Below are positions 8,763 to 38,210 of a stretch of 39,257 bases of DNA, piece by piece (position 1 is the stretch's first letter; the number at the start of each line of letters is the position of its first letter). A program made the position numbers and the translations under genes. The notes below the pieces were generated by a model that saw only the letters and a list, made by a program, of their open reading frames with translations, did not search any database and was not told the DNA's origin. Origin of the DNA: Acidobacteriota bacterium (GTDB lineage: Bacteria > Acidobacteriota > Thermoanaerobaculia > Gp7-AA8); NCBI GenBank assembly GCA_019242175.1, contig JAFAVZ010000214.1:1-39257 (forward strand), given 5' to 3'.

Positions 8763-8766
<4 letters not shown>
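7456..8766 (-). CDS. MFS transporter (EntS-like efflux family)
   Basis: MTRRRAFLWIWIGQLISVIGTRLSTFAVGIWVLQKTGSTTQYAFIF...FAGALVDRWDRRKVMIAADAL; about 12 hydrophobic segments; ATGA overlap with the upstream NRPS stop. Confidence 0.85.
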
Positions 8767-13097
<4,331 letters not shown>

Positions 13098-13099
13098 GG

Positions 13100-16000
13100 C
13101 TACGCCTGCCCCCCGAGCAGCGCCTGCAGCTCGTCTTCGCTGAGCGCGCTGAGCGTCTGTTCCATCTCCGCGACGAGGAGCGGCGCGAACGCGGCGACGG
13201 TTGGCGCCTCGAACAGACGGCGCAGCGGCATGTCGACGCCGAACGTGCGGCTGACGCGGGCGATGAGCTGCGTGGCGAGCAGCGAGTGTCCGCCGAGGGA
13301 GAAGAAGTCGTCTTCGATGCCGACGTTGGGGACGCCGAGGACGTCGGCCCAGATCTCGACGAGCTGCTCTTCTTCGGCGGTGCGCGGGGCGACGGGCGCC
13401 GATTCCTGGACGTCGAGGAGATCGGGGACGGGCAACGCGCGACGATCGACTTTGCCGTTCGGCGAGATCGGCAGCTTCGCCAGGGTCACGAAGGCCGAGG
13501 GGATCATGTAGTCGGGCAGGACGGCGCGGAGATGCGCGCGCAGCTCGGCCGTCGTCGGCGCCGCGTCGTTCGGAACGACGTAGGCGACGAGGCGTTTATC
13601 GCCGGGACGGTCTTCGCGAAGGATGACCACGGCCTGGCGCACGGACGCGTGCTCGCGCAACGCGCCTTCGATCTCGCCCAGCTCGATGCGGAAGCCGCGC
13701 AGTTTGACCTGGTTGTCGGCGCGGCCGAGGATCTCCAGGCGGCCGTCGCGACGCCAACGCGCGATGTCGCCGCTGCGATAGAGCCGAGAGCCTTCGACAT
13801 CGCTGAAGGGATCGGCGATGAAGCGGTCGGCGGTGAGCTCGGGGCGGTTGATGTAGCCGTGGCCGAGGCCGATGCCGCCGATGAGGAGCTCGCCCGGAAC
13901 GCCGTCCGGCACGAGCTGCAGCGTCGCCGGATCGGCGACGTACATGCGCATGTTCTGGATCGGCTTGCCGATCGTGATCGGCTCGTTCGGAAGCACGCGG
14001 TCGATCACCGACCACACCGTGGTTTCGGTCGGGCCGTAGACGTTCCACAGCTCCGCGCAGCGTTCGAGGAGGCGGTCGGCGAGATCGCGCGGGAGCGGCT
14101 CGCCGCCGATGAGGATGCGCAGGCCGTCGATGCCTTCCCACCCGGCGTCGAGGAGCATGCGCCACGTGGCGGGCGTCCCCTGCGCGACCGTCGCGCCGCT
14201 GGTCTTCAGGAACTGCGCGAGGCGTTTGCCGTCCTTCGCCGTGCCGCGATCGCTGACCGCGGCCTTCGCGCCGCAGATGAGCGGCAGCAGTAGCTCCAGC
14301 ACGGAGATGTCGAAGGAAAGGGTGGTGATCGCGCAGACGGTGTCGGCCGCGGTAAGGCCCGGCTCCTTCAGCATCGCGAGAAGGAAGTTCGCCGCGCCGC
14401 GATGCGGGATCTGCACGCCTTTCGGCTTGCCGGTGGAGCCGGAGGTGAAGATGACGTACGCGGTGTCGGCCGGCCCCGGGCCGGTGCGTTGGTCGGCAAA
14501 GCCTCGGCGGCCATTCTCGGTGTCATCCTGAGCCGCGGAGACGGCGAAGGATCCGTACCGATCTCGCGCTGCGCCCGAAGGTACGGATCCTTCGCTGCGC
14601 TCAGGATGACACTCGTCCACGAAGAGCAGCTCGACATCCGTCGCCGGCACTTCGTCGCGGAGGGCTTGCTGGGTCACGACGAGGCGGACGCCGGTGTCGC
14701 TGAGCATGAACGCGAGGCGTTCGCGGGGATACGTCGGATCGAGCGGGAGGTACGCGGCGCCGGACTTCAGGATGCCGAGGACCGCGGTCATCATTTCCGG
14801 TCCACGGTCGGTGTAGATGCCGACCAACTCGCCCGGTTTCGCGCCGTGCGCGCGCAGCTCGATGGCGAACGCATTCGCGGCGTCGTCGAGCTCGCGGTAA
14901 GTGAGTTTGCGATCGGGGAAGATGAGCGCAACGTCGTCCGGCGTGCGTGTGACCTGCGCCTCGATGAGCGCCGTGAGCGTCGTCGGCGGCGTGTCGACGA
15001 CGTTCGCCACGCGGTCCACGAGCAGCGTGTGGCGCTCGGCTTCCGTCAGCAGCGGCAGCTCGCCGATCTTCGTCTCGGGATGCTCGACCGCGCCGCGGAA
15101 AAGGACGGCGAAATGCTCGCCGAAGGCGCGTACCGTCTCCGCTTCGAAGAGGTCGGTGCTGTATTCCAGGAGAAGGTCGAGCCGGTCGTCGTTTTGCTCC
15201 ACAAACAACGCGAGGTCCGTGCGCGCGGTCGCGGAGTTGATCTCGTCCATCTGCAGCGGCGTCAGCGTGATGCCGGGCAGGTCGAGACGCTGGTGAGGCA
15301 TGTTCTGGAAGAACACCATCACCTGGAAGAGCGGCGAGTGGCCGAGGGAACGGTCGACTTGCAGCTCTTCGATGAGGCGCTCTACGGGAAGGTCCTGATG
15401 CCCGTACGCGCCGAGCGTCGTCTCCTTGATGCGGTCGAGCAGCTCGCGGAACGTCGGGTTGCCGGAGAGCTCGGTGCGGAGCGCGAGCGTGTTGACGAAG
15501 TAGCCGACGAGTGGCTCGAGCTCCTCGCGGTTGCGACCGGCGATGCCTGAGCCGACGACGACGTCGGTCTGGCCCGTCGTCCGGAACAAAAGCGTCTTCA
15601 GCGCTGCAAGAAAGGTCATGAACAGCGTGACGCCTTCCTCCCGGCTGCGCTGCTTCGCCGCCTCGACCAGCTCGGGCGGAATGGTGATGCGCACGACGTC
15701 GCCGCGATACGACTGCTTCGCCGGACGTGGACGATCGGCGGGGATCTCCAGGATCGGGAGGTTGCCGGCGAGACGCTCCGTCCAGTAGTCGAGCTGCCCT
15801 TTGAGGACGTCGCCCTGCAGCCACTCGCGCTGCCAGAGCGCGAAGTCGGCGTACTGGATCGGCAGCTCCGTGAGCGGCGACGGTTTCCCTTGTTGATACG
15901 CCTCGTACAACGCGCCGAGCTCGCGGTAGAGGACGGAGAACGACCAGCCGTCGACGGCGATGTGATGGAAGTTGAAGACGAGCAGGTGCTCCTCTTCGGA

Positions 16001-16471
16001 CAGGCGCACGACGACCGTGCGCATCAGCGGTCCCTTCACCAGATCGAAAGGACGGCGCGCTTCGGCGTTCCCGATCGCGAGTGCCTCCTCGCGCGACGAA
16101 GCATGGAGCAGCGGCAGATCGACGCTGCCTCGTTCGGCGATGACTTGCCGCGGACGGCCGTCCGTCGCCGGCACCGTCGTGCGCAGCGGCTCGTGGCGCT
16201 GCACGAGCGTTTCGAGGCAGCGCCGGAGGATGTCGAGATCGAGCTTGCCGCGCATCCAGGCGCCGGCCGGCACGTTGTAGCTCGCGGAGTCGGGCTCGAG
16301 CTGATCGAGGAGCCAGAGGCGCTGCTGGGCGAACGACGTCGGCAGCGGATCGGGGCGTTCGCGGCGCGTGATGCGTCCGCGCGCGGCCTTCTCCTTCGCC
16401 AGCTGTTGCAGCAGGAGCGCGCGTTTCTGCGGCGAGAGATCGGCGATGCGTTGCTGGTTGACGTCGCTCAT
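13100..16471 (-). CDS. NRPS module C-A-PCP (glycine-like A-domain code)
   Basis: C: HHIAVDGWS; A: VIFTSGSTGKPKG, NVYGPTETTVW, YRSGD, PNGKVDRRALP; PCP: LGGHSLLATQL. ATGA overlap with the NRPS1 stop. Confidence 0.93.
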   Translation of the reverse strand: MSDVNQQRIADLSPQKRALLLQQLAKEKAARGRITRRERPDPLPTSFAQQRLWLLDQLEPDSASYNVPAGAWMRGKLDLDILRRCLETLVQRHEPLRTTVPATDGRPRQVIAERGSVDLPLLHASSREEALAIGNAEARRPFDLVKGPLMRTVVVRLSEEEHLLVFNFHHIAVDGWSFSVLYRELGALYEAYQQGKPSPLTELPIQYADFALWQREWLQGDVLKGQLDYWTERLAGNLPILEIPADRPRPAKQSYRGDVVRITIPPELVEAAKQRSREEGVTLFMTFLAALKTLLFRTTGQTDVVVGSGIAGRNREELEPLVGYFVNTLALRTELSGNPTFRELLDRIKETTLGAYGHQDLPVERLIEELQVDRSLGHSPLFQVMVFFQNMPHQRLDLPGITLTPLQMDEINSATARTDLALFVEQNDDRLDLLLEYSTDLFEAETVRAFGEHFAVLFRGAVEHPETKIGELPLLTEAERHTLLVDRVANVVDTPPTTLTALIEAQVTRTPDDVALIFPDRKLTYRELDDAANAFAIELRAHGAKPGELVGIYTDRGPEMMTAVLGILKSGAAYLPLDPTYPRERLAFMLSDTGVRLVVTQQALRDEVPATDVELLFVDECHPERSEGSVPSGAARDRYGSFAVSAAQDDTENGRRGFADQRTGPGPADTAYVIFTSGSTGKPKGVQIPHRGAANFLLAMLKEPGLTAADTVCAITTLSFDISVLELLLPLICGAKAAVSDRGTAKDGKRLAQFLKTSGATVAQGTPATWRMLLDAGWEGIDGLRILIGGEPLPRDLADRLLERCAELWNVYGPTETTVWSVIDRVLPNEPITIGKPIQNMRMYVADPATLQLVPDGVPGELLIGGIGLGHGYINRPELTADRFIADPFSDVEGSRLYRSGDIARWRRDGRLEILGRADNQVKLRGFRIELGEIEGALREHASVRQAVVILREDRPGDKRLVAYVVPNDAAPTTAELRAHLRAVLPDYMIPSAFVTLAKLPISPNGKVDRRALPVPDLLDVQESAPVAPRTAEEEQLVEIWADVLGVPNVGIEDDFFSLGGHSLLATQLIARVSRTFGVDMPLRRLFEAPTVAAFAPLLVAEMEQTLSALSEDELQALLGGQA
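14466..14618 (-). repeat. Family A palindrome plus GLANRRSGP-like element within the A domain
   Basis: tgtcatcctgagccgcggagacggcgaaggatccgtacc...ggtacggatccttcgctgcgctcaggatgaca (14521-14611); translated CHPERSEGSVPSGAARDRYGSFAVSAAQDDTENGRRGFADQRTGPGPA. Confidence 0.92.
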
Positions 16472-19400
16472 GACAGCTGGCTCCGGAGCAGCAGCGCCTC
16501 TTCATCCGACAAGCCTTCGAGCTGGCTGAGGAGGTCGTCGAGGTTCTCGGTCTCGAGGCTCGCGGCGCGCGCGTTGGTGATGTGCCCGGCGAGCGTCGCG
16601 ACGGTCGGCGCGTCGAAGAGGACCCGCAGCGGGACTTCGATGCCGGTCGATTTCTCGATCCGGGCGAGGAGCTGCATCGCGAGGAGCGAGTGGCCGCCGA
16701 GGTCGAAGAAGTTGTCGTCGCGGCCGATGTCAGTGCGGCCGAGGAGATCGGCCCACAACATGGCAATCATCTGTTCGTCGGGCGTCTGCGGCGCCTCGGC
16801 CACCGTCTTCGCGAACGCTTCCGGCGCGGGGAGCGCGTGGCGATTCACCTTGCCGTTCGGCGTCAGCGGGAACTTCTCCAGCGCGACGAACGCCGCGGGG
16901 ATCATGTAGTCGGGGAGCGACTTGCGGAGGTGCGTGCGCAAATCATCAGCGTTCGCGGTTCCCGTCGTGTACGCGACGAGGCGCTTGTCGCCGGGGCGGT
17001 CTTCGCGGCAGTGCACGACGGCCTGTTCGACGTCTTCGTGATGCGCGAGCACCGCCTCGATCTCGCCGAGCTCGATGCGAAAGCCGCGGAGCTTCACCTG
17101 GTGATCGATGCGGCCGAGGACTTCGAGCTGGCCGTCCGGACGCCAGGCGGCGAGATCGCCAGCGCGGTACAGCCGCGCGTTCGGGCGTTCGGAGAACGGA
17201 TCGGCGACGAACTTCTCGGCGGTGAGGTCGGGGCGACCGAGGTAGCCGCGGGCGAGGCCGTCGCCGCCGATGAGGAGCTCGCCCGGGACGCCCGGCGGGA
17301 GCAGCTGGAGGTGGCGGTCGACGATGTGAATCTGCGTGTTGGCGACCGGACGCCCGATCGGGATCGGGCCGCTGCCCGACTCGATGCGGCCGAGGGCCGA
17401 ATAGACCGTGGTCTCCGTCGGGCCGTAGAGGTTCCACAGCTCGCGGCCGCACGGGATCAGACGCTCGGCGAGCTCGCGGGGGAGCGCTTCGCCGGTCGAG
17501 ATGATCTTCAGGCCCGGCTTCCCGGTCCAGCCGATGTCGAGGAGCATGCGCCACGTCGCGGGTGTGGCCTGGAGGATCGTGACGTCGTTCTCGGCGACGA
17601 GGCGCGCGAGAGCGTTGCCGTCGCGGACGGTGTCGCGGTCGGCGAGGAGGATGTGCGCGCCGACGGTGAGCGGCAGCACGAGCTCGAAGAGGGCGATGTC
17701 GAAGGAGAGCGTGGAGACGGCGCAGACCGTGTCCTGCGCGGTCATGCCCGGCGCCTTGGCGACGGAGGCGAGGAGGTTCGCCGCGGAGCGCTGCGTGATC
17801 TGCACGCCTTTCGGGCGGCCGGTGGAGCCGGAGGTGAAGATGACGTAGGCGAGGTCGTCGGGGGAGGAAATGTGGGCGCCGGCTTCAGCCGGCCGCCGGG
17901 ACCGGCTGAAGCCGGTCCCCACGTTTTCCTCTACATTCACCACCTCGAGGCCCGCGACCGGCACGCGGTCGCGCAGCTCAGGCTGCGTCACCACGACGCG
18001 CGCTTCGGCGTCGCCGAGCATGAACGCGAGGCGTTCGGCCGGATACGACGGGTCGAGCGGGACGTAGGCGCCGCCGGCTTCGAGGATGGCGACGATGCCG
18101 ATCACCATCTCCAGCGAGCGTTCCACGAAGAGGCCGACGAGCGAGCCGGGGCCGACGCCTTTCTCGCGCAGTTCCGCGGCGAGCGCGGAGGCGCGGGCGC
18201 GGAGCTCGGCGTAGGTCAGCGTGACGCCGCGGAACGTGATCGCCGGCTTGTCGGACGGAGGCTGGATCAGATCGATGAGCGGGCCGGGCGTGTAGTCGGC
18301 GCGCGTGTCGTTCCACTGCGCGAGCTGCGCGCGTTCGGCGTCCGTCAACAGAGGCAATGCGGCGAGCGGCGTCGAGGCGTCGGCGATCGCGGCGCGGAGG
18401 AGCACGACGAAGTTGCCGGCGAGGCGTTCGATCGTCGCGCGGTCGAAGAGGTCGGTGCTGTACTGGAAGAGCAGCTCGCCCTGCTCCTCCTGATTCACGA
18501 ACAGCGCGATGTCCGTCTGCGCGGAGCCGGGGTGCACCTGGTCGAGCGGCACGCGCGAGACGCGCAGGCCGTTCATCGCGATGGGATCGCGCGCGTAGTT
18601 CTGGAAGAACATCATCACCTGCACGAACGGCATGTGACTCGCGGCGCGGTCGATCTTCATCGACTCCAGGACGCGGCTGAGCGGCGCATCCTGATTCGCC
18701 TGCGCGCCGAGCGTGGTTTCGCGAACGCGCGCCAGCAGATCGCCGAACGTCATCGCATCGGCAAACTGCGCGCGGAGCACGAGCGTGTTCACGAAGAAGC
18801 CGACGATCGACTCCAGCTCCGCGCGCGGGCGGTTCGCCAGGCCGACGCCGATCGGCAGATCGTCCTGTCCGGTGAGGCGATGCAGCAGCGTCGTCCAGGC
18901 GGCGAAGAGCGTCATGAACGGCGTGACGTTCTCCTTCCGGCTGAACTGCTCCATCGCCTCGTACACGTCGGGCGGGATGAGGTGACGCACGAGCGAGCCT
19001 TTGAACGACTGCACGGGCGGGCGGGCGTGGTCGGCGGGAAGGTCGAGCGTCGAAGGGCAGCCCTCGAGATGCTCGCGCCAGTGCGCGACCTGGCGGTCCA
19101 TCCGTTCGCCTTCCAGCCACTCGCGCTGCCAGAGCGCGTAGTCGGCGTACTGCAGGCGCACGGGCTCGAGCGCCTCGCCGTTGTAGAGCCGGGCGAGCTC
19201 GCCGAGGATGACGTTGATCGACCAGCCGTCGATGAGCAGGTGATGGACGGCGATCGCGAGCAGGTGATGCTCACCGCTCACCTGCACGAGCAGCGCGCGG
19301 ACGAGCGGACCGCGCGCGAGGTCGAACGAGGCGGCGATCGACGCGCTCGCGATCTGCAGCGCTTCGTCGTCACTCGCGGCATTCGCGCGGACGAGAGGCA

Positions 19401-19749
19401 CCGACAGTGAAGGAGCGATGCGTTGGAATCCGCGGCCGTCTTCCGACGGAACCGAGGTGCGCAGCGACTCGTGGCGGCGCACCACTTCGTCGATCGCGCG
19501 TTGGAGCGCGTCGACGTCGAGCGCGCCCTCGAGCCAGAGCGCGATCGACTCGTTGTACGCGGCGCTGCCGGGCGCGAGCTGCTCGACGACCCACAGCCGC
19601 TCCTGGCCGAAAGACAGCGGAATGCGCTCGGGGCGCGGACGAGGCCGCACCTCCCCTGCCGCGGCGCGCCGTTCGGCGACGAGTTTTTCGAGCAGCGCGC
19701 GTTTGGCGCTGGAGAGTCCGGCGAGACGTTCGTTGTTGTCGTTGGTCAT
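16468..19749 (-). CDS. NRPS first module C-A-PCP
   Basis: C: HHLLIDGWS; A: VIFTSGSTGRPKG, NLYGPTETTVY, YRAGD, PNGKVNRHALP; PCP: LGGHSLLAMQL. Confidence 0.93.
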   Translation of the reverse strand: MTNDNNERLAGLSSAKRALLEKLVAERRAAAGEVRPRPRPERIPLSFGQERLWVVEQLAPGSAAYNESIALWLEGALDVDALQRAIDEVVRRHESLRTSVPSEDGRGFQRIAPSLSVPLVRANAASDDEALQIASASIAASFDLARGPLVRALLVQVSGEHHLLAIAVHHLLIDGWSINVILGELARLYNGEALEPVRLQYADYALWQREWLEGERMDRQVAHWREHLEGCPSTLDLPADHARPPVQSFKGSLVRHLIPPDVYEAMEQFSRKENVTPFMTLFAAWTTLLHRLTGQDDLPIGVGLANRPRAELESIVGFFVNTLVLRAQFADAMTFGDLLARVRETTLGAQANQDAPLSRVLESMKIDRAASHMPFVQVMMFFQNYARDPIAMNGLRVSRVPLDQVHPGSAQTDIALFVNQEEQGELLFQYSTDLFDRATIERLAGNFVVLLRAAIADASTPLAALPLLTDAERAQLAQWNDTRADYTPGPLIDLIQPPSDKPAITFRGVTLTYAELRARASALAAELREKGVGPGSLVGLFVERSLEMVIGIVAILEAGGAYVPLDPSYPAERLAFMLGDAEARVVVTQPELRDRVPVAGLEVVNVEENVGTGFSRSRRPAEAGAHISSPDDLAYVIFTSGSTGRPKGVQITQRSAANLLASVAKAPGMTAQDTVCAVSTLSFDIALFELVLPLTVGAHILLADRDTVRDGNALARLVAENDVTILQATPATWRMLLDIGWTGKPGLKIISTGEALPRELAERLIPCGRELWNLYGPTETTVYSALGRIESGSGPIPIGRPVANTQIHIVDRHLQLLPPGVPGELLIGGDGLARGYLGRPDLTAEKFVADPFSERPNARLYRAGDLAAWRPDGQLEVLGRIDHQVKLRGFRIELGEIEAVLAHHEDVEQAVVHCREDRPGDKRLVAYTTGTANADDLRTHLRKSLPDYMIPAAFVALEKFPLTPNGKVNRHALPAPEAFAKTVAEAPQTPDEQMIAMLWADLLGRTDIGRDDNFFDLGGHSLLAMQLLARIEKSTGIEVPLRVLFDAPTVATLAGHITNARAASLETENLDDLLSQLEGLSDEEALLLRSQLS
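17872..17926 (-). repeat. Family B palindrome within the A domain
   Basis: gtgggcgccggcttcagccggccgccgggaccggctgaagccggtccccacg; translated NVGTGFSRSRRPAEAGAHI. Confidence 0.9.
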
Positions 19750-22001: not shown

Positions 22002-23542
22002 GACTGAGCGGGCTCCTGAATCAGATCGGTAGCGGGGCGCGCGGCGCGGCGAAGAATCGGCGCGGCGGTGAAAGCGACGGCGATGAGCTGGACGAGAAAT
22101 CCGAGAAAGAGCCGCAGACGGCCGTCGGTCGCGAGCGGACCCATGAACGGCAGGACGAGGGAGAGGGGGATGTAGAGCAGGAGGCACGTGAGGGCGGGCT
22201 TCATCCCGCCCTGGGACCGGCTGAAGCCGGTCCCCACGTTTTCTCGCCAGTACTGCGGCATCACGAGGCTCCACAGCCAGAGCACCGGCGGCAGCGCGTA
22301 GGTATCGGGCACGAAGGGGCTGCGCAGCGCGGCGAGGGCGATGAGCGCGATCCAGAGCTGGGCCTGCGTCAGGCGGTCTTCGCGGCCGATGCGCAGGCCG
22401 ACGACGACCGCGATCCCAAGCACGATCAGGCTGTAGACGAGCGAGACCTTCTGCACGGCGTCGTGCATCGCGAAGGCGACGCCGAGGTCGTGGAGCTTGA
22501 GGGCGAGGCCGGGGATGCCCTGATTGATGGCGACGACCTGGTGGATGATGGGGATGTCGAGCTCCATGAAGCTCCACGCCTCCCCTTTCGTGATGCGGGG
22601 CAACCCGTAGCTGAGGAACTGGCGCAACGGATTCGTGCCCATCCAAAGGACGGAGACCGCGGTGTAGAACGCGCTGAAGCCGCACGTCCAGATCACCGCG
22701 CGCCATCGTTTCTGCAGCACGAGCGGGACGAGGACGATGCCGGGGAAAATCTTGAAGACGGCGAAGCCGAGGAGCGCGCCGCCGGCGGCGTTGCGTCCGC
22801 GGGCGAAGCTCACCAGCGCGATCATCGTCATCGCGATCGCCGCGAGCTGGAAGTTGCCGATCTGCAGCGTCAGGAGGATCGGCGTCGCCAGCGCCAACGC
22901 CGGCGTGAGGAAGAGCGCGCGTTTGCCTTCCTCGCCGCCGACCCACTTCGCCACGATCACCACCGCGGCGCCGAACGTCGCGGCTTCGAGCGCGAACCAC
23001 GCGGTGCGCAGCGTCATGAACCCCTTCGTGAACGCCAGCCCGATGCGCGGCAGAAGCATGAAGGACGACGGATAGAGGAACTCGTCCATCGTGAAACGGC
23101 CGAGGAAGCTCTGGTAGAGATCCGTGTCGTAGAGCTCCGACTGGTAGGGATTCGGCGCGCCTTCCATCGCCAGCTTCGCCGAGAGGTACAGCGAGGAGAA
23201 GCAGCTGTGGCGGATGTAGAAGGGATCGAACCAGAGCACCGAGAGCTCGGCGTGGCTCGAGTCCATCATGAACCAGGCGAGTCCCCACAAACGGACGGCG
23301 GCCAGGACGCCGACGACGAGGAACGCGACGCGTGCGGGCGTTCCGACTTCGGGCAATGGCAACGCCGCGGCGATGCGGTCACGCGCGGCGTAGAAGCCCG
23401 CGCACACGACGAGCGCCGCGACGGCGAGCGCCGCGAGAGGGACGAGCCCGAGAGCGGAGAGCGCGGCTGCGGCGACGGGAATCGCTAGCAGCGCGCTCAC
23501 AACAAGGAGATAAGAATCGTGAGTCCGGATCACGCTTAACAC
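21998..23542 (-). CDS. GT87/DUF2029-like polytopic membrane glycosyltransferase
   Basis: Polytopic protein with WFDPFYIRHSCFSSLYLSAKL..PNPYQ..LYPSSFMLLPRIGLAF..GFAVFKIFPGIVLVPLVLQKRW; GTG start at 23540-23542; ATGA overlap with the downstream gene. Confidence 0.7.
   Translation of the reverse strand: MLSVIRTHDSYLLVVSALLAIPVAAAALSALGLVPLAALAVAALVVCAGFYAARDRIAAALPLPEVGTPARVAFLVVGVLAAVRLWGLAWFMMDSSHAELSVLWFDPFYIRHSCFSSLYLSAKLAMEGAPNPYQSELYDTDLYQSFLGRFTMDEFLYPSSFMLLPRIGLAFTKGFMTLRTAWFALEAATFGAAVVIVAKWVGGEEGKRALFLTPALALATPILLTLQIGNFQLAAIAMTMIALVSFARGRNAAGGALLGFAVFKIFPGIVLVPLVLQKRWRAVIWTCGFSAFYTAVSVLWMGTNPLRQFLSYGLPRITKGEAWSFMELDIPIIHQVVAINQGIPGLALKLHDLGVAFAMHDAVQKVSLVYSLIVLGIAVVVGLRIGREDRLTQAQLWIALIALAALRSPFVPDTYALPPVLWLWSLVMPQYWRENVGTGFSRSQGGMKPALTCLLLYIPLSLVLPFMGPLATDGRLRLFLGFLVQLIAVAFTAAPILRRAARPATDLIQEPAQS
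22186..22241 (-). repeat. Family B palindrome within the GT87-like gene
   Basis: cgtgagggcgggcttcatcccgccctgggaccggctgaagccggtccccacg; translated NVGTGFSRSQGGMKPALT. Confidence 0.85.
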
Positions 23543-25167: not shown

Positions 25168-25869
25168 ATGTTTAGCTTCGGCGCGAAACCGCAATGTCCC
25201 TGCTACCCGCTCGCGAAGGAGTGGGTCGAGCAGCGCCTCGGCTGGATTCGCGGGCAATTCGGCACGACGATCTTCGACGATCGCCCGCTCGTGTTCCCGA
25301 CTGACGACTTCTTCCCTGACGACTACGACGGGACGGATGACGCAGCGCGCGCCGTCCTGCGCCGCGTGGCCAATCTGATGGACGTGCCTTCGGACCGCGT
25401 CGCCCTGCGCATCGACGACGCCGGCTTCCCCACCGACTTCGGGAAACGATGGACGATCACGATCGACCGCCGCGAGCTCGGGAGGCCGCACCGCCTCATC
25501 ACGATCTTCGCCTCCGAGCTCGCCCAGGGCCGCCTGTTCGTCGAGGATCGCGCGGACGATGCCTTCGACGCCGACCTCCTCACGGACCTCACCGCCTCGG
25601 CCCTCGGCTTCGCTCTTTTTCTCGCCAACGCGGCGCAGTCACTCGAAAGCTCTTCGTTCTGGCCCGGCACGCGGCTGTCGCGGCCCGCGTCGATGACGCC
25701 GCCGATGTTCGGCTGGATGCTCGCCCACCTCGCCTGGTTCGAAAACGATCCGAAGCCGGGCTGGGAAAAGTACCTCGGCAACACCAGCAAGACGGATTTC
25801 CGCGAGGGCGTGCGCTATCTGTTCGCGACGGGGGATACGACGTTCCGCCCGCGGGCGGTGTCATCCTGA
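25168..25869 (+). CDS. Hypothetical protein; its stop codon lies within a palindromic repeat
   Basis: MFSFGAKPQCPCYPLAKEWVEQRLGWIRGQFG...; coherent ORF ending ...RPRAVSS* where GTG TCA TCC TGA is the repeat edge. Confidence 0.6.
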   Translation: MFSFGAKPQCPCYPLAKEWVEQRLGWIRGQFGTTIFDDRPLVFPTDDFFPDDYDGTDDAARAVLRRVANLMDVPSDRVALRIDDAGFPTDFGKRWTITIDRRELGRPHRLITIFASELAQGRLFVEDRADDAFDADLLTDLTASALGFALFLANAAQSLESSSFWPGTRLSRPASMTPPMFGWMLAHLAWFENDPKPGWEKYLGNTSKTDFREGVRYLFATGDTTFRPRAVSS

Positions 25870-26016
25870 GCCCCGCAGAGAGCGAAGGATCTCCCAGCCT
25901 GGACGCCGATCGCCATATCAGGAGATCCTCCCCGTCTCCGCGGGTCAGGATGACACTCGGCGCACGCTCCGCCTGAAGGTACGGATTCTTCGCCGTCTGC
26001 GCGGCTCAGAATGACA
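25859..26016 (+). repeat. Family A palindromic repeat (one full copy plus a half copy)
   Basis: tgtcatcctgagccccgcagagagcgaaggatctcc...ggagatcctcc...gggtcaggatgaca, then ggtacggattcttcgccgtctgcgcggctcagaatgaca. Confidence 0.85.
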
Positions 26017-26987: not shown

Positions 26988-27799
26988 TGTCATCCTGAGC
27001 CGCGCAGACGGCGAAGGATCTCCTGATGCGGGCGGAAAGCGCACGTGCCGGGAGATCCTTCGCTGCGCTCAGGATGACAGCGGGAAGCCGCACGCCGTGT
27101 CATTCTGAGCCGCGCAGACGGCGAAGAATCCGTACCTTCAGGCGCTGCGCGAGATCGGTACGGATCCTTCACAGTCTTCGCTGTTCAGGATGACACCGCG
27201 ACGGAGGCGACTAGCGAGCTGCTCTGTCATCCTGAGCCCCGAAGAGGGCGAAGGATCTCCTAATGCGGGCGGAAAGCGCACGTGCCGGGAGATCCTTCGC
27301 TGCGCTCAGGATGACAGGGGGAAGCCGCACGCCGTGTCCTTCTGAGCCGCGCAGATGGCGAAGAATCCGTACCTTCAGGCGCTGCGCGAGATCGGTACGG
27401 CTCCTTCACAGTCTTCGCTGTTCAGAAGGACACCACGATGGAGCCGAGTAGCGAGCTGCTCTGTCATCCTGAGCCCCGCAGAGGGCGAAGGATCTCCTGA
27501 TGCGGGCGGAAAGCGCACGTGCCGGGAGATCCTTCGCTGCGCTCGGGATGACAGGGGGAAGCCGCACGCCGTGTCATTCTGAGCCGCGCAGATGGCGAAG
27601 GATCCGTACCTTCAGGCGCAGTGCGAGATCGGTACGGATCCTTCACAGTCTTCGCTGTTCAGGATGACACCGCGACGGAGGCGAGTAGCGAGCTGCTCTG
27701 TCATCCTGAGCCCCGCAGAGGGCGAAGGATCTCCTGATGCGGGCGGAAAGCGCACGTGCCGGGAGACCCTTCACAGTCTTCGCTGTTCAGGATGACACC
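26988..27799 (+). repeat. Tandem array of a composite palindromic repeat, 237-bp period, three full units plus one partial
   Basis: tgtcatcc begins at 26988, 27225, 27462, 27699; atgcgggcgg begins at 27026, 27263, 27500, 27737; cacgccgtgtc begins at 27091, 27328, 27565. All intervals are exactly 237 bp. Confidence 0.97.
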
Positions 27800-29830: not shown

Positions 29831-29907
29831 CAAGGCCGGCGAGGACGCGAAACTTTGTGAAGGCTTGGCCAACAAGCGCAGCGGGCCGTGCCCGCCTCAG
29901 GATGACA
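29831..29907 (+). repeat. Family C repeat
   Basis: tgaaggcttggccaacaagcgcagcgggccgtgcccgcctcaggatgaca; close copy inside the NRPS terminal-module gene at 11629-11705. Confidence 0.75.
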
Positions 29908-31996: not shown

Positions 31997-32080
31997 TGTC
32001 ATCCTGAGCCGCGAAGACGGCGAAGGATCTCCCGGTTCTTGCCAGGAGATCCTTCGTCCTCTTCGGGACTCAGGATGACA
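31997..32080 (+). repeat. Family A palindromic repeat between hrpB and the peptidase gene
   Basis: tgtcatcctgagccgcgaagacggcgaaggatctcccggttcttgccaggagatccttcgtcctcttcgggactcaggatgaca; long inverted arms. Confidence 0.9.
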
Positions 32081-36012: not shown

Positions 36013-38210
36013 CGATCCTGAACGTGGGGACCGGCTTCAGCCGGTCCCGGAACGGGCTGAAGCCCGTTCCCACGTCGTAGCAAGTCCGCCACGATCCGCC
36101 GCAGCTCCTCCGGTTCCACCGGTTTTGCCACGTACGCCGTGAACCCGGCGCGCATCGCGGCCTCGCGGTCCTCGGGGCGGGCGTATGCGGTCAGCGCGAC
36201 GACGGGCATCGTCGAGCCGCGGGCGCGCAGGCGGCGTAGCAGTTCGTAGCCATCCATGTCGGGCATGCCGAGGTCGGTGATCACGGCGTCGGGCGTCCAG
36301 TCTTCGAGCGTCGCCAGCGCCTCGGTCGCCGAGGAGAGGATGCGGATGTCGGCGCCGGCCATGCGGAACACGGCGAGCGCGTAAGTCCGCACGGACTCCT
36401 CGTCGTCGACGGCGAGGATGCGCGCGCCGCGAAGGCTGCCGCCGTCAAACTCGGGCTGCGTCTCGTCCTTCGGCCGCACCTCGGGCGAAAGCAGCGGGAG
36501 GCGAACGCGGAACGTCGCGCCGCGGCCCTCCCCTTCGCTCGCCGCTTCCACGCGGCCGCCGTGCATGTCGACGAGATGGCGCACGATCGCCAGGCCGAGT
36601 CCGAGGCCGGTGTAGGCACGGGTCATCGAGCTGTCCGCCTGGCGGAAACGCTCGAACACGTGCGGCAGGAACGCGGGCTCGATGCCCTGGCCGGTATCGG
36701 CCACCTCGAGCAACGCGAACGGACCTTCGGAGCGCATGGTCACGCGCACGCGGCCGTCGCGCGGCGTGAACTTCACCGCGTTCGAGAGCAGATTCCAGAG
36801 CACCTGCTGGATGCGATGCGCGTCGCCGTTCACGATCAGCGGCTCGGTGGAGAGCGCGCGGTCGACGCGCACGCCTTTGGCCTCCGCGACCGGCGTCACC
36901 GAGTTGATCGCCGCCGCGACGACCGGCCCGAGCTCCATTGGCCGCGGCTCGAGGTGCATCTTGCCGGCGGTGATGCGCGAGACGTCGAGCAGATCGTCGA
37001 TCAGCTGGGCCTGGGCGCGGGAGCTCTTCTGGATCGCATCGATCGCCGTCTTGTTCGTTTCCTCGTCGAGATCTTCTTCCCCGAGTAGACGGGCCCACCC
37101 GATGATCGCCGTCATCGGCGTGCGCAGCTCGTGCGACAGCGTCGCCAGGAACTCGTCCTTCGCCTGATTCGCGCGCTGCATCTCCGCCTCCGACCGGCGC
37201 AGCCGTTCCGCCGTCGCTTCGGCATCCGCGCGGCCGCGCGTCTGGAGCCGGACGAGCGTGAAGATGAGGAACGTGATGATCAGGCCGCCGGCGAGCGTTG
37301 CGAACGCGAGCACCGAGGCCGTGTTCGCGCCGTCGCGACGAAAGACGAGCGTCCAGTGCCGTCCGGCGACGACGACGTCGAGCTGGCGGCGGAAGTGGCC
37401 GTCCGTCGCCTCTCCGGTGCGGAAGAGCAGATGCTGCGGATCGAGCTGCGTGCCGTCGTAGATCTCGATCGCGTCGATGTCGCGTCGATGCTGCGCGTCG
37501 ATGAGATCCGACAGCAGCTCCTCGGAGCGGAACGGCGCGTAAACCCAGCCATAGAGCGTCTCCCGCCGTTTCTCCGGCTCCTCCGGGATCTCGCGCGTCG
37601 TGTAGATCGGCGTGAAGATCGCGAAACCGACGCGCTGCGGCTCGCCGGCCGGACGCAGGAGAAGGAGGCGGCCCGTCGCGGTCGCCTGGCCCGAGTCGCG
37701 GGCACGGATCATCGCTCCACGCCGGGTAGGATCGGTCAACATGTCGAAGCCGAGGACCATGCGGTTGCGCATCTCCGCGGGCTCGAGGACGATCACCGCC
37801 GAATACTCATCGCGGTCGCTTTCGGGCCAGACACGGAAGTCCGGATAGCTCTCCGTGTGCATCGTGTTGACGACGTCGCTCAGCCGGTCCTTCGGGAAGC
37901 GGAGGATGAGACCGACGCCTTGCATGCCGGGAAAGTTCTTCGGCACGTCGAGATGGCGAACGTAGTCGCGGAACTCGTCCTGCGTCACGCTTTGCTCGGC
38001 GGCGAAGAGGCTGTTCGCGGCTTTGAGCGTGCTGATGTCCGTGAGGATGCGGCTCTGGATCGCATCGCGGGCCATCTGCGACGCGCTCTCGAAACGGGCG
38101 CGCACCGCCAGCTCCGCCATGCGCGAGACGTACACCGTCGCAATGCCCGTCAACAGCAGGAAGACGGCGAGCACGAGCCACGGGGCGAACCGGTCGGGAG
38201 AGCGGGACAT
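36009..38210 (-). CDS. CHASE-domain hybrid sensor histidine kinase with C-terminal receiver
   Basis: TM then CHASE-like region GLILRFPKDRL...; LATLSHELRTPMTAIIGWARLL (HisKA); VADTGQGIEPAFLPHVFERFRQ (HATPase); RILAVDDEESVR...DLGMPDMDGYELLRRLR...AKPV (receiver). Confidence 0.92.
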   Translation of the reverse strand: MSRSPDRFAPWLVLAVFLLLTGIATVYVSRMAELAVRARFESASQMARDAIQSRILTDISTLKAANSLFAAEQSVTQDEFRDYVRHLDVPKNFPGMQGVGLILRFPKDRLSDVVNTMHTESYPDFRVWPESDRDEYSAVIVLEPAEMRNRMVLGFDMLTDPTRRGAMIRARDSGQATATGRLLLLRPAGEPQRVGFAIFTPIYTTREIPEEPEKRRETLYGWVYAPFRSEELLSDLIDAQHRRDIDAIEIYDGTQLDPQHLLFRTGEATDGHFRRQLDVVVAGRHWTLVFRRDGANTASVLAFATLAGGLIITFLIFTLVRLQTRGRADAEATAERLRRSEAEMQRANQAKDEFLATLSHELRTPMTAIIGWARLLGEEDLDEETNKTAIDAIQKSSRAQAQLIDDLLDVSRITAGKMHLEPRPMELGPVVAAAINSVTPVAEAKGVRVDRALSTEPLIVNGDAHRIQQVLWNLLSNAVKFTPRDGRVRVTMRSEGPFALLEVADTGQGIEPAFLPHVFERFRQADSSMTRAYTGLGLGLAIVRHLVDMHGGRVEAASEGEGRGATFRVRLPLLSPEVRPKDETQPEFDGGSLRGARILAVDDEESVRTYALAVFRMAGADIRILSSATEALATLEDWTPDAVITDLGMPDMDGYELLRRLRARGSTMPVVALTAYARPEDREAAMRAGFTAYVAKPVEPEELRRIVADLLRRGNGLQPVPGPAEAGPHVQDR
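36022..36075 (-). repeat. Family B palindromic repeat encoding the C-terminal tail of the kinase
   Basis: acgtggggaccggcttcagccggtcccggaacgggctgaagcccgttcccacg; translated tail RGNGLQPVPGPAEAGPHVQDR. Confidence 0.85.

Follow-up and report, generated by a model that had tools for sequence, protein, structure and literature searches.

Small palindromic repeats of three families (A, B and C) lie in frame within all three modules of a nonribosomal peptide synthetase (NRPS) that is encoded in a 39,257-nucleotide stretch of Acidobacteriota DNA (GenBank assembly GCA_019242175.1, contig JAFAVZ010000214.1; hereafter the window). Our reading, to which we give a probability of roughly 85%, is that families resembling repetitive extragenic palindromes (REPs) insert throughout this genome, that copies inside genes survive in frame at protein loops and linkers, and that the NRPS inserts are independent of one another and apparently neutral. 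The window corresponds to contig C8 of a draft genome of 5.6 Mb that is in 686 contigs, 86% complete and 5% contaminated. Its three-module NRPS is encoded by three minus-strand genes, with condensation (C), adenylation (A), thiolation (T) and reductase domains as follows:

16468..19749, minus strand: module 1 (m1) gene, C-A-T, 1093 aa (Pfam Condensation, AMP-binding, AMP-binding_C, PP-binding)
13100..16471, minus strand: module 2 (m2) gene, C-A-T, 1123 aa (Pfam)
8763..13097, minus strand: module 3 (m3) gene, C-A-T-reductase, 1444 aa (Pfam Condensation, AMP-binding, PP-binding, NAD_binding_4)

Inspection of the translations shows that the HHxxxDG, A3, YGPTE, NGKVDR/NGKVNR, GG(H/D)SL and reductase GATGFLG motifs are all present, so m1, m2 and m3 are not evident pseudogenes. 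In m1 and m2 the repeats occupy the loop between A-domain motifs a2 and a3, and the elements found there are:

17869..17925, minus strand: family B insert in the a2-a3 loop of the m1 A domain, element proper 17870-17924 (nhmmer E 6e-11; site empty in the orthologue described below; within the model's only stretch with a predicted local distance difference test score, pLDDT, below 50)
14521..14611, minus strand: family A head-head dimer in the m2 A domain (short arm of 26 nt, spacer and long arm of 33 nt), read as CHPERSEGSVPSGAARDRYGSFAVSAAQDDT (nhmmer; 105-nt fold z -7.7)
14466..14512, plus strand: family C element GCCGGCCCCGGGCCGGTGCGTTGGTCGGCAAAGCCT..., read on the minus strand as the m2 insert tail GRRGFADQRTGPGPA (BLAST matches to other copies, including those in m3 and COX15; 36 copies in the genome sample described below, control 0)

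The m2 insert, CHPERSEGSVPSGAARDRYGSFAVSAAQDDTENGRRGFADQRTGPGPA, consists of 48 codons (C621-A668; 144 nt at 14468-14611) between LLFVDE and DTAYVIFTSGSTG, and is composed of family A (31 aa) and family C (15-17 aa). The m1 insert, NVGTGFSRSRRPAEAGAHI, consists of 19 codons (N609-I627; 57 nt at 17869-17925) between VNVEE and SSPDDLAYVIFTSGSTG, and is a family B element unrelated to the families in m2; nhmmer and BLAST found no repeat common to the two inserts. Alignment with the orthologues places the start of both directly after the aligned VDE/VEE, just upstream of A3, and the two insertion points agree within ~1-3 codons. An earlier reading made from the sequence alone (the sequence-only reading) had quoted both segments, and they are exact in the translations of the three genes; its claim that they are repeat-derived, in frame and just upstream of A3 is borne out by the alignment and by copy counts against zero in reversed controls (below). 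The predicted hairpins are strong (z -7.7 and -5.9, DNA parameters). That the m2 tail (14466-14518) is native loop sequence was ruled out by BLAST, which identified it as the third repeat, family C. The m1 family B element is flanked by an inverted repeat, GAGGAAA...TTTTCCTC (window 17864-17931), that was not seen around the other listed B copies.

The ~33-nt family A arm has the form TGTC-ATCCT-GA-GCCG-N6-CGGC-GA-AGGAT-C. Its core pattern is matched 427 times forward and 420 times in reverse in its own genome, and the family B core palindrome 187 and 185 times, each palindrome being counted on both strands; the reversed controls gave 0 for either core, and nhmmer on 1.19 Mb of reversed sequence gave no A match and no significant B match. 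In most cases a family A arm has an inverted partner 32-33 bp away (94 of 146 adjacent pairs have the tag outside, 35 have it inside and 17 are tandem). Across 70 distinct arms the stem is 97% paired, compared with 30-42% when one side is slid, and compensatory pairs (G-C/A-T/C-G and C-G/G-C/T-A) change on both sides at several positions. Of 184 copies, 182 retain the tandem GA/GA mismatch, and the TGTC tag is present in 184 of 184 long arms, a figure to be read knowing that the search profile itself started with TGTC. At the start of the stem, pair 5-32 is formed in 97% and pair 6-31 in 100%; the long arm has nine pairs split 5+4 by GA/GA and a loop of 6, the short arm has 5+2 pairs and a loop of 3, and arms end in C followed by variable letters. 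Family B, 54 nt long, is made up of two 10-bp hairpins that abut and has the ends ACGTGG...CCACGT; its stems are 96% paired, compared with 26-53% after sliding. In family C, TGCGYTKGTYGGCCAAGCCT follows a small hairpin, and 16 of the 36 copies adjoin A or B blocks. A C hairpin directly follows a TGTCATCCTGAG-like head at L056:12626, L067:10896, L114:8281 and window positions 29861 and 11660, as if nested in, or built on, a family A arm.

The above comparisons establish that the segments are repeats, but are the same sites occupied in related enzymes? A genome of the same family but another genus (G015) encodes an orthologous three-module NRPS (65, 56 and 57% identity) that aligns without the segments at all three sites; this orthologue thus does not keep them as conserved non-repeat sequence, the finding that the sequence-only reading had named as telling against itself. 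The a2-a3 spacing of m2 minus its insert (92 - 48 = 44 residues) is exactly that of the G015 m2, and over 84 A domains this spacing runs from 23 in m3, the shortest, to 92 in m2, the longest, the median being 64. The exact agreement bears on the idea of an assembly artefact, in which repeat reads were joined chimerically into the NRPS genes of this metagenome assembly. The draft is fragmented, with the completeness and contamination given above, and such repeats break assemblies; nonetheless, three separate chimeras would be needed, all of them frame-keeping, stop-free and at loops, and the in-phase copies elsewhere in the genome (below) would be a further coincidence, which makes an artefact very improbable.

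AlphaFold models of the m1 and m2 A domains have mean pLDDT values of 85.8 and 86.2, with the core mostly about 85-95, and each model has a single stretch below 50, which is in the insert region: in m1 it comprises residues 130-143, with strands 123-126 and 154-160 on either side, and in m2 residues 137-172, with strands 125-128 and 181-187 on either side. The m2 model matches solved A domains (e.g., 4d56, template modelling score 0.86 by target), and a phmmer alignment to a solved A domain has gaps at the insert region. The m1 and m2 segments are thus predicted to be disordered and outside the A-domain core, a prediction made from a shallow alignment of 16 sequences; the structural check suggested by the sequence-only reading places both inserts in a loop that is predicted to be disordered and has a core strand on each side.

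Module 3 carries ~75-88 further in-frame residues from families A, B and C, which lie in the C-A linker and not in the a2-a3 loop:

11442..11705, minus strand: composite insert in the m3 C-A linker, net ~75 aa longer than the G015 orthologue (nhmmer/BLAST)
within it: family C at ~11634-11706; family B at 11552-11601; family C at 11491-11520; family A arms at 11518-11544 and 11455-11487 (nhmmer/BLAST)

The sequence-only reading missed this composite (C, B, C, A), and its account of the inserts, correct for m1 and m2, was to that extent incomplete. The m3 a2-a3 spacing (window 11100-11250) is 23 residues, and so unusually short a segment is what one might expect if the NRPS were a dying pseudogene that accepts anything. 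We find such decay extremely doubtful: the three frames are long and open, the C, A, T and reductase catalytic motifs are intact, the inserts of every module are in phase and stop-free, and the corresponding segment of the third G015 module is also short (35).

We classified 131 repeat blocks in 1.19 Mb of this genome by the codon statistics of their flanks; ~118 of these are away from contig ends, and the sample is non-random in that some contigs were chosen for repeats or NRPS genes. Bacterial genomes are mostly coding, yet only nine of the ~118 blocks have both flanks coding on one strand and a frame open across them, so repeats inside genes are strongly depleted. All nine are in phase (chance (1/3)^9 = 5e-5), and there is no case of an open frame that is out of phase. 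Among the blocks with a stop, nine are in phase and 14 out of phase, the ~1:2 ratio of unrelated neighbouring genes, and those tested separate different genes (one of five pairs has no Pfam match on one side). Three of the nine intragenic blocks are in this NRPS, and the other six hosts are a COX15 inter-helix loop, GH3-like and PAP2-like genes, a membrane protein without a Pfam match, the acyl carrier protein-ketosynthase (ACP-KS) linker of a polyketide synthase (PKS) and an Hpt-kinase linker; the genome's other NRPS contigs have no in-frame insert in their NRPS modules. The COX15/CtaA gene (L071:11184-12227, C141) has an in-frame A+B(+C) insert in its inter-helix loop, and the COX15 of most same-family relatives matches it in two pieces that flank the insert; COX15 of G005, from another genus, has an unrelated long loop (L228), a ~40-aa insertion, at the same inter-helix place. 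The PKS copy is an in-frame family B element (L082:3348-3394, C310) in an AprA-like hybrid cluster. An Rfam search of the window gave no match. Other elements in the window, listed without strand, are:

22186..22239: family B element
25859..26016: family A elements, flanking genes convergent
26988..27797: family A dimers in a tandem array, 3.3 copies of a 237-bp period
31997..32080: family A dimer, flanking genes on the same strand
36022..36075: family B element, flanking genes convergent

Family A copies with spacing like that of the 26988-27797 array are also present on another contig (L089/C105).

Among 80 relatives the family A pattern occurs only in the same taxonomic family and is patchy there (some genomes have 165, 137, 53 and 44 matches and others none); it has 0 matches in G015 and in 63 of 63 searched genomes outside the family. 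One weak A arm is present in the examined NRPS region of the genome with 165 matches (G008). Copy number and patchiness suggest that the elements are mobile. Families A, B and C of small hairpin elements would thus multiply and insert throughout the genome, mainly between genes, and copies within genes would be purged unless the frame is kept, no stop is introduced and the site is a protein loop or linker. In the NRPS the permissive sites would be the C-A linker and the a2-a3 loop, which lies between the strand ending in LLF/VVN and the P-loop strand of A3, and the m1 (B), m2 (A+C) and m3 (A+B+C) inserts would be independent in-frame insertions whose translated segments are disordered and stay clear of the catalytic core. 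Neutrality, retained enzyme activity and the identity of the mobilising enzyme are points that we infer.

The same loop is occupied by repeat-encoded peptide in three Aminicenantes A domains, at L138:16391-16540 (SEIRISKSETNPND...FEFRASNL), around 1501 in L226 and around 1743 in L197. The repeat there is A+T-rich, palindromic and unrelated to those described above, with 163 matches in one such genome and 0 in the reversed control. These cases were found by inspecting a2-a3 loops only, and they document recurrence and not an unbiased rate. The L138 and L226 inserts share their flanks and probably descend from one insertion that spread between modules. Could module duplication or gene conversion likewise have carried one insertion between modules in the window? 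NRPS modules recombine often (PMC8097286), and the Aminicenantes pair is a probable example; for the window, however, such an origin is already contradicted and hardly credible, the inserts being B in m1, A+C in m2 and a composite elsewhere in m3, with no repeat common to m1 and m2. Because the m1 and m2 families differ at one aligned point, one insert was not copied between these modules, and the sequence-only reading was right that recombination between modules is not the simple explanation.

The best supported part of our reading is the tolerance of the a2-a3 loop. The insertion-tolerant loop proposed by the sequence-only reading agrees with the empty orthologue, the single stretch of pLDDT below 50 and the 23-92 range of spacings, although two events cannot separate tolerance from target preference and tolerance of this site is not in itself new. 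Under target-site preference, a DNA feature near the loop (e.g., the A3 codons or local structure) would attract the elements irrespective of protein tolerance. The coincidence of the m1 and m2 sites has a chance of ~0.6% if all positions are equal and ~6% if inserts are tolerated at one position in ten, and A and C elements are often side by side and sometimes apparently nested. However, families A and B and the Aminicenantes repeat have no ends in common, m3 shares the A3 motif yet carries its insert in the C-A linker, and the remaining intragenic copies are at loops of unrelated genes, so that we consider target preference unlikely; the unrelated Aminicenantes family at the same loop likewise favours tolerance. 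The segments or their mRNA hairpins could instead have been kept as useful, for example in translational pausing between domains or in A-domain dynamics. The strong predicted hairpins and the decoration of all three modules of one cluster, which is a clustering above expectation, are in keeping with such exaptation; it nonetheless seems improbable in view of the three compositions at two sites, the like inserts in COX15, GH3-like, PAP2-like and kinase genes, the orthologue without inserts and the undecorated modules on the genome's other NRPS contigs.

Several observations weigh against independent, neutral insertion at tolerant sites. Three of nine intragenic copies in one NRPS, where 0.09 are expected (post hoc P ~1e-4, non-random sample), is more than random tolerance predicts, and this clustering, with two families at one point, is compatible with some preference in insertion or with relaxed constraint. 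In m1 the loop exceeds that of the first G015 module by just 6 aa (67 and 61, respectively) and would be 48 without the B element, so family B may have replaced loop sequence rather than lengthened the loop. The sole NRPS orthologue with empty sites is only 56-65% identical, and for that reason exact insert boundaries and target duplications are unreadable. Loop tolerance by independent insertion is still the reading that we prefer, and we suggest, more tentatively and at somewhat less than even odds, that unrelated palindromic repeats in different phyla have repeatedly landed in the a2-a3 loop, such insertions being a source of its extreme length variation and possibly raw material of interrupted A domains. 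In effect nature has carried out an insertion experiment on an assembly-line enzyme, in which DNA tags mark where the a2-a3 loop and the C-A linker take 19 to 88 residues, and both places suggest themselves for the insertion of tags or domains. A warning also follows for predicted proteins: peptides like CHPERSEGS or NVGTGFSR derive from repeats and are not conserved enzyme sequence.

How do these repeats compare with known systems? REPs inside open reading frames have been listed, and may be neutral in flexible linkers or loops (PMC3733652). Family A resembles the CGTC-tagged REP superfamily (Di Nocera et al. 2013, PMC3733652; including Neisseria dRS3 and Rickettsia RPE-4/RPE-6) in that its TGTC tag is a listed CGTC variant, its stem opens A-T, T-A, head-head dimers (tags outside) predominate, and its hundreds of copies are mainly intergenic, some being in frame inside genes; it may also lack a dedicated transposase. 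It differs in its GA/GA split and in loops of 6 in the long arm and 3 in the short one, in place of the superfamily's 8-9-bp stem with a loop of 4-5, and in its frequent clusters and association with family C. The superfamily has a 3-bp tail, mostly CCA; family A arms end in C plus variable letters. Because tag, A-T start and dimers agree but stem-loop geometry does not, family A is CGTC-like and we do not file it as a superfamily member. Paired inverted hairpins and high copy number are also properties of REPs and bacterial interspersed mosaic elements with REP-associated tyrosine (Y1) transposases; the tag here is TGTC, not GTAG. A link to Y1 transposases is unsupported: no A or B block lies within ~4 kb of the genome's two Y1_Tnp genes (L009 (C12) and L010 (C210)), and among relatives Y1_Tnp counts do not track family A, other transposase types not having been searched.

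Rickettsia palindromic elements (RPEs) sit in frame in unrelated proteins, and hot spots have been discussed (Ogata and co-workers, as cited in PMC3767692); the same source gives RPE-4/6/7 as sharing ATGAC, the complement of GTCAT, and different RPE groups as possible neighbours in one gene. The NRPS and COX15 copies are RPE-like, as palindromic repeats in open reading frames that keep frame and are absent from orthologues. Unlike RPEs, they are in another organism, two unrelated families occupy one aligned loop of paralogous modules, and there are three-family composites. The interrupted A domains of TioN and MarQ also have extra sequence between a2 and a3, a methyltransferase domain with adenylation retained (PMC11355689), and since the site takes whole domains its tolerance here is plausible. 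That sequence is a folded, functional domain, in contrast to the 19-48 aa of repeat-derived, predicted disordered sequence in m1 and m2; Pfam found no domain in the inserts, and hence no auxiliary catalytic domain. In a partial coverage of the literature we found no paper on families A, B and C or on REPs in NRPS A domains. Intragenic REPs and RPEs, and a2-a3 tolerance of methyltransferase domains, were already known, whereas the three families, the decoration of all modules of one NRPS and the recurrence at one loop are new.

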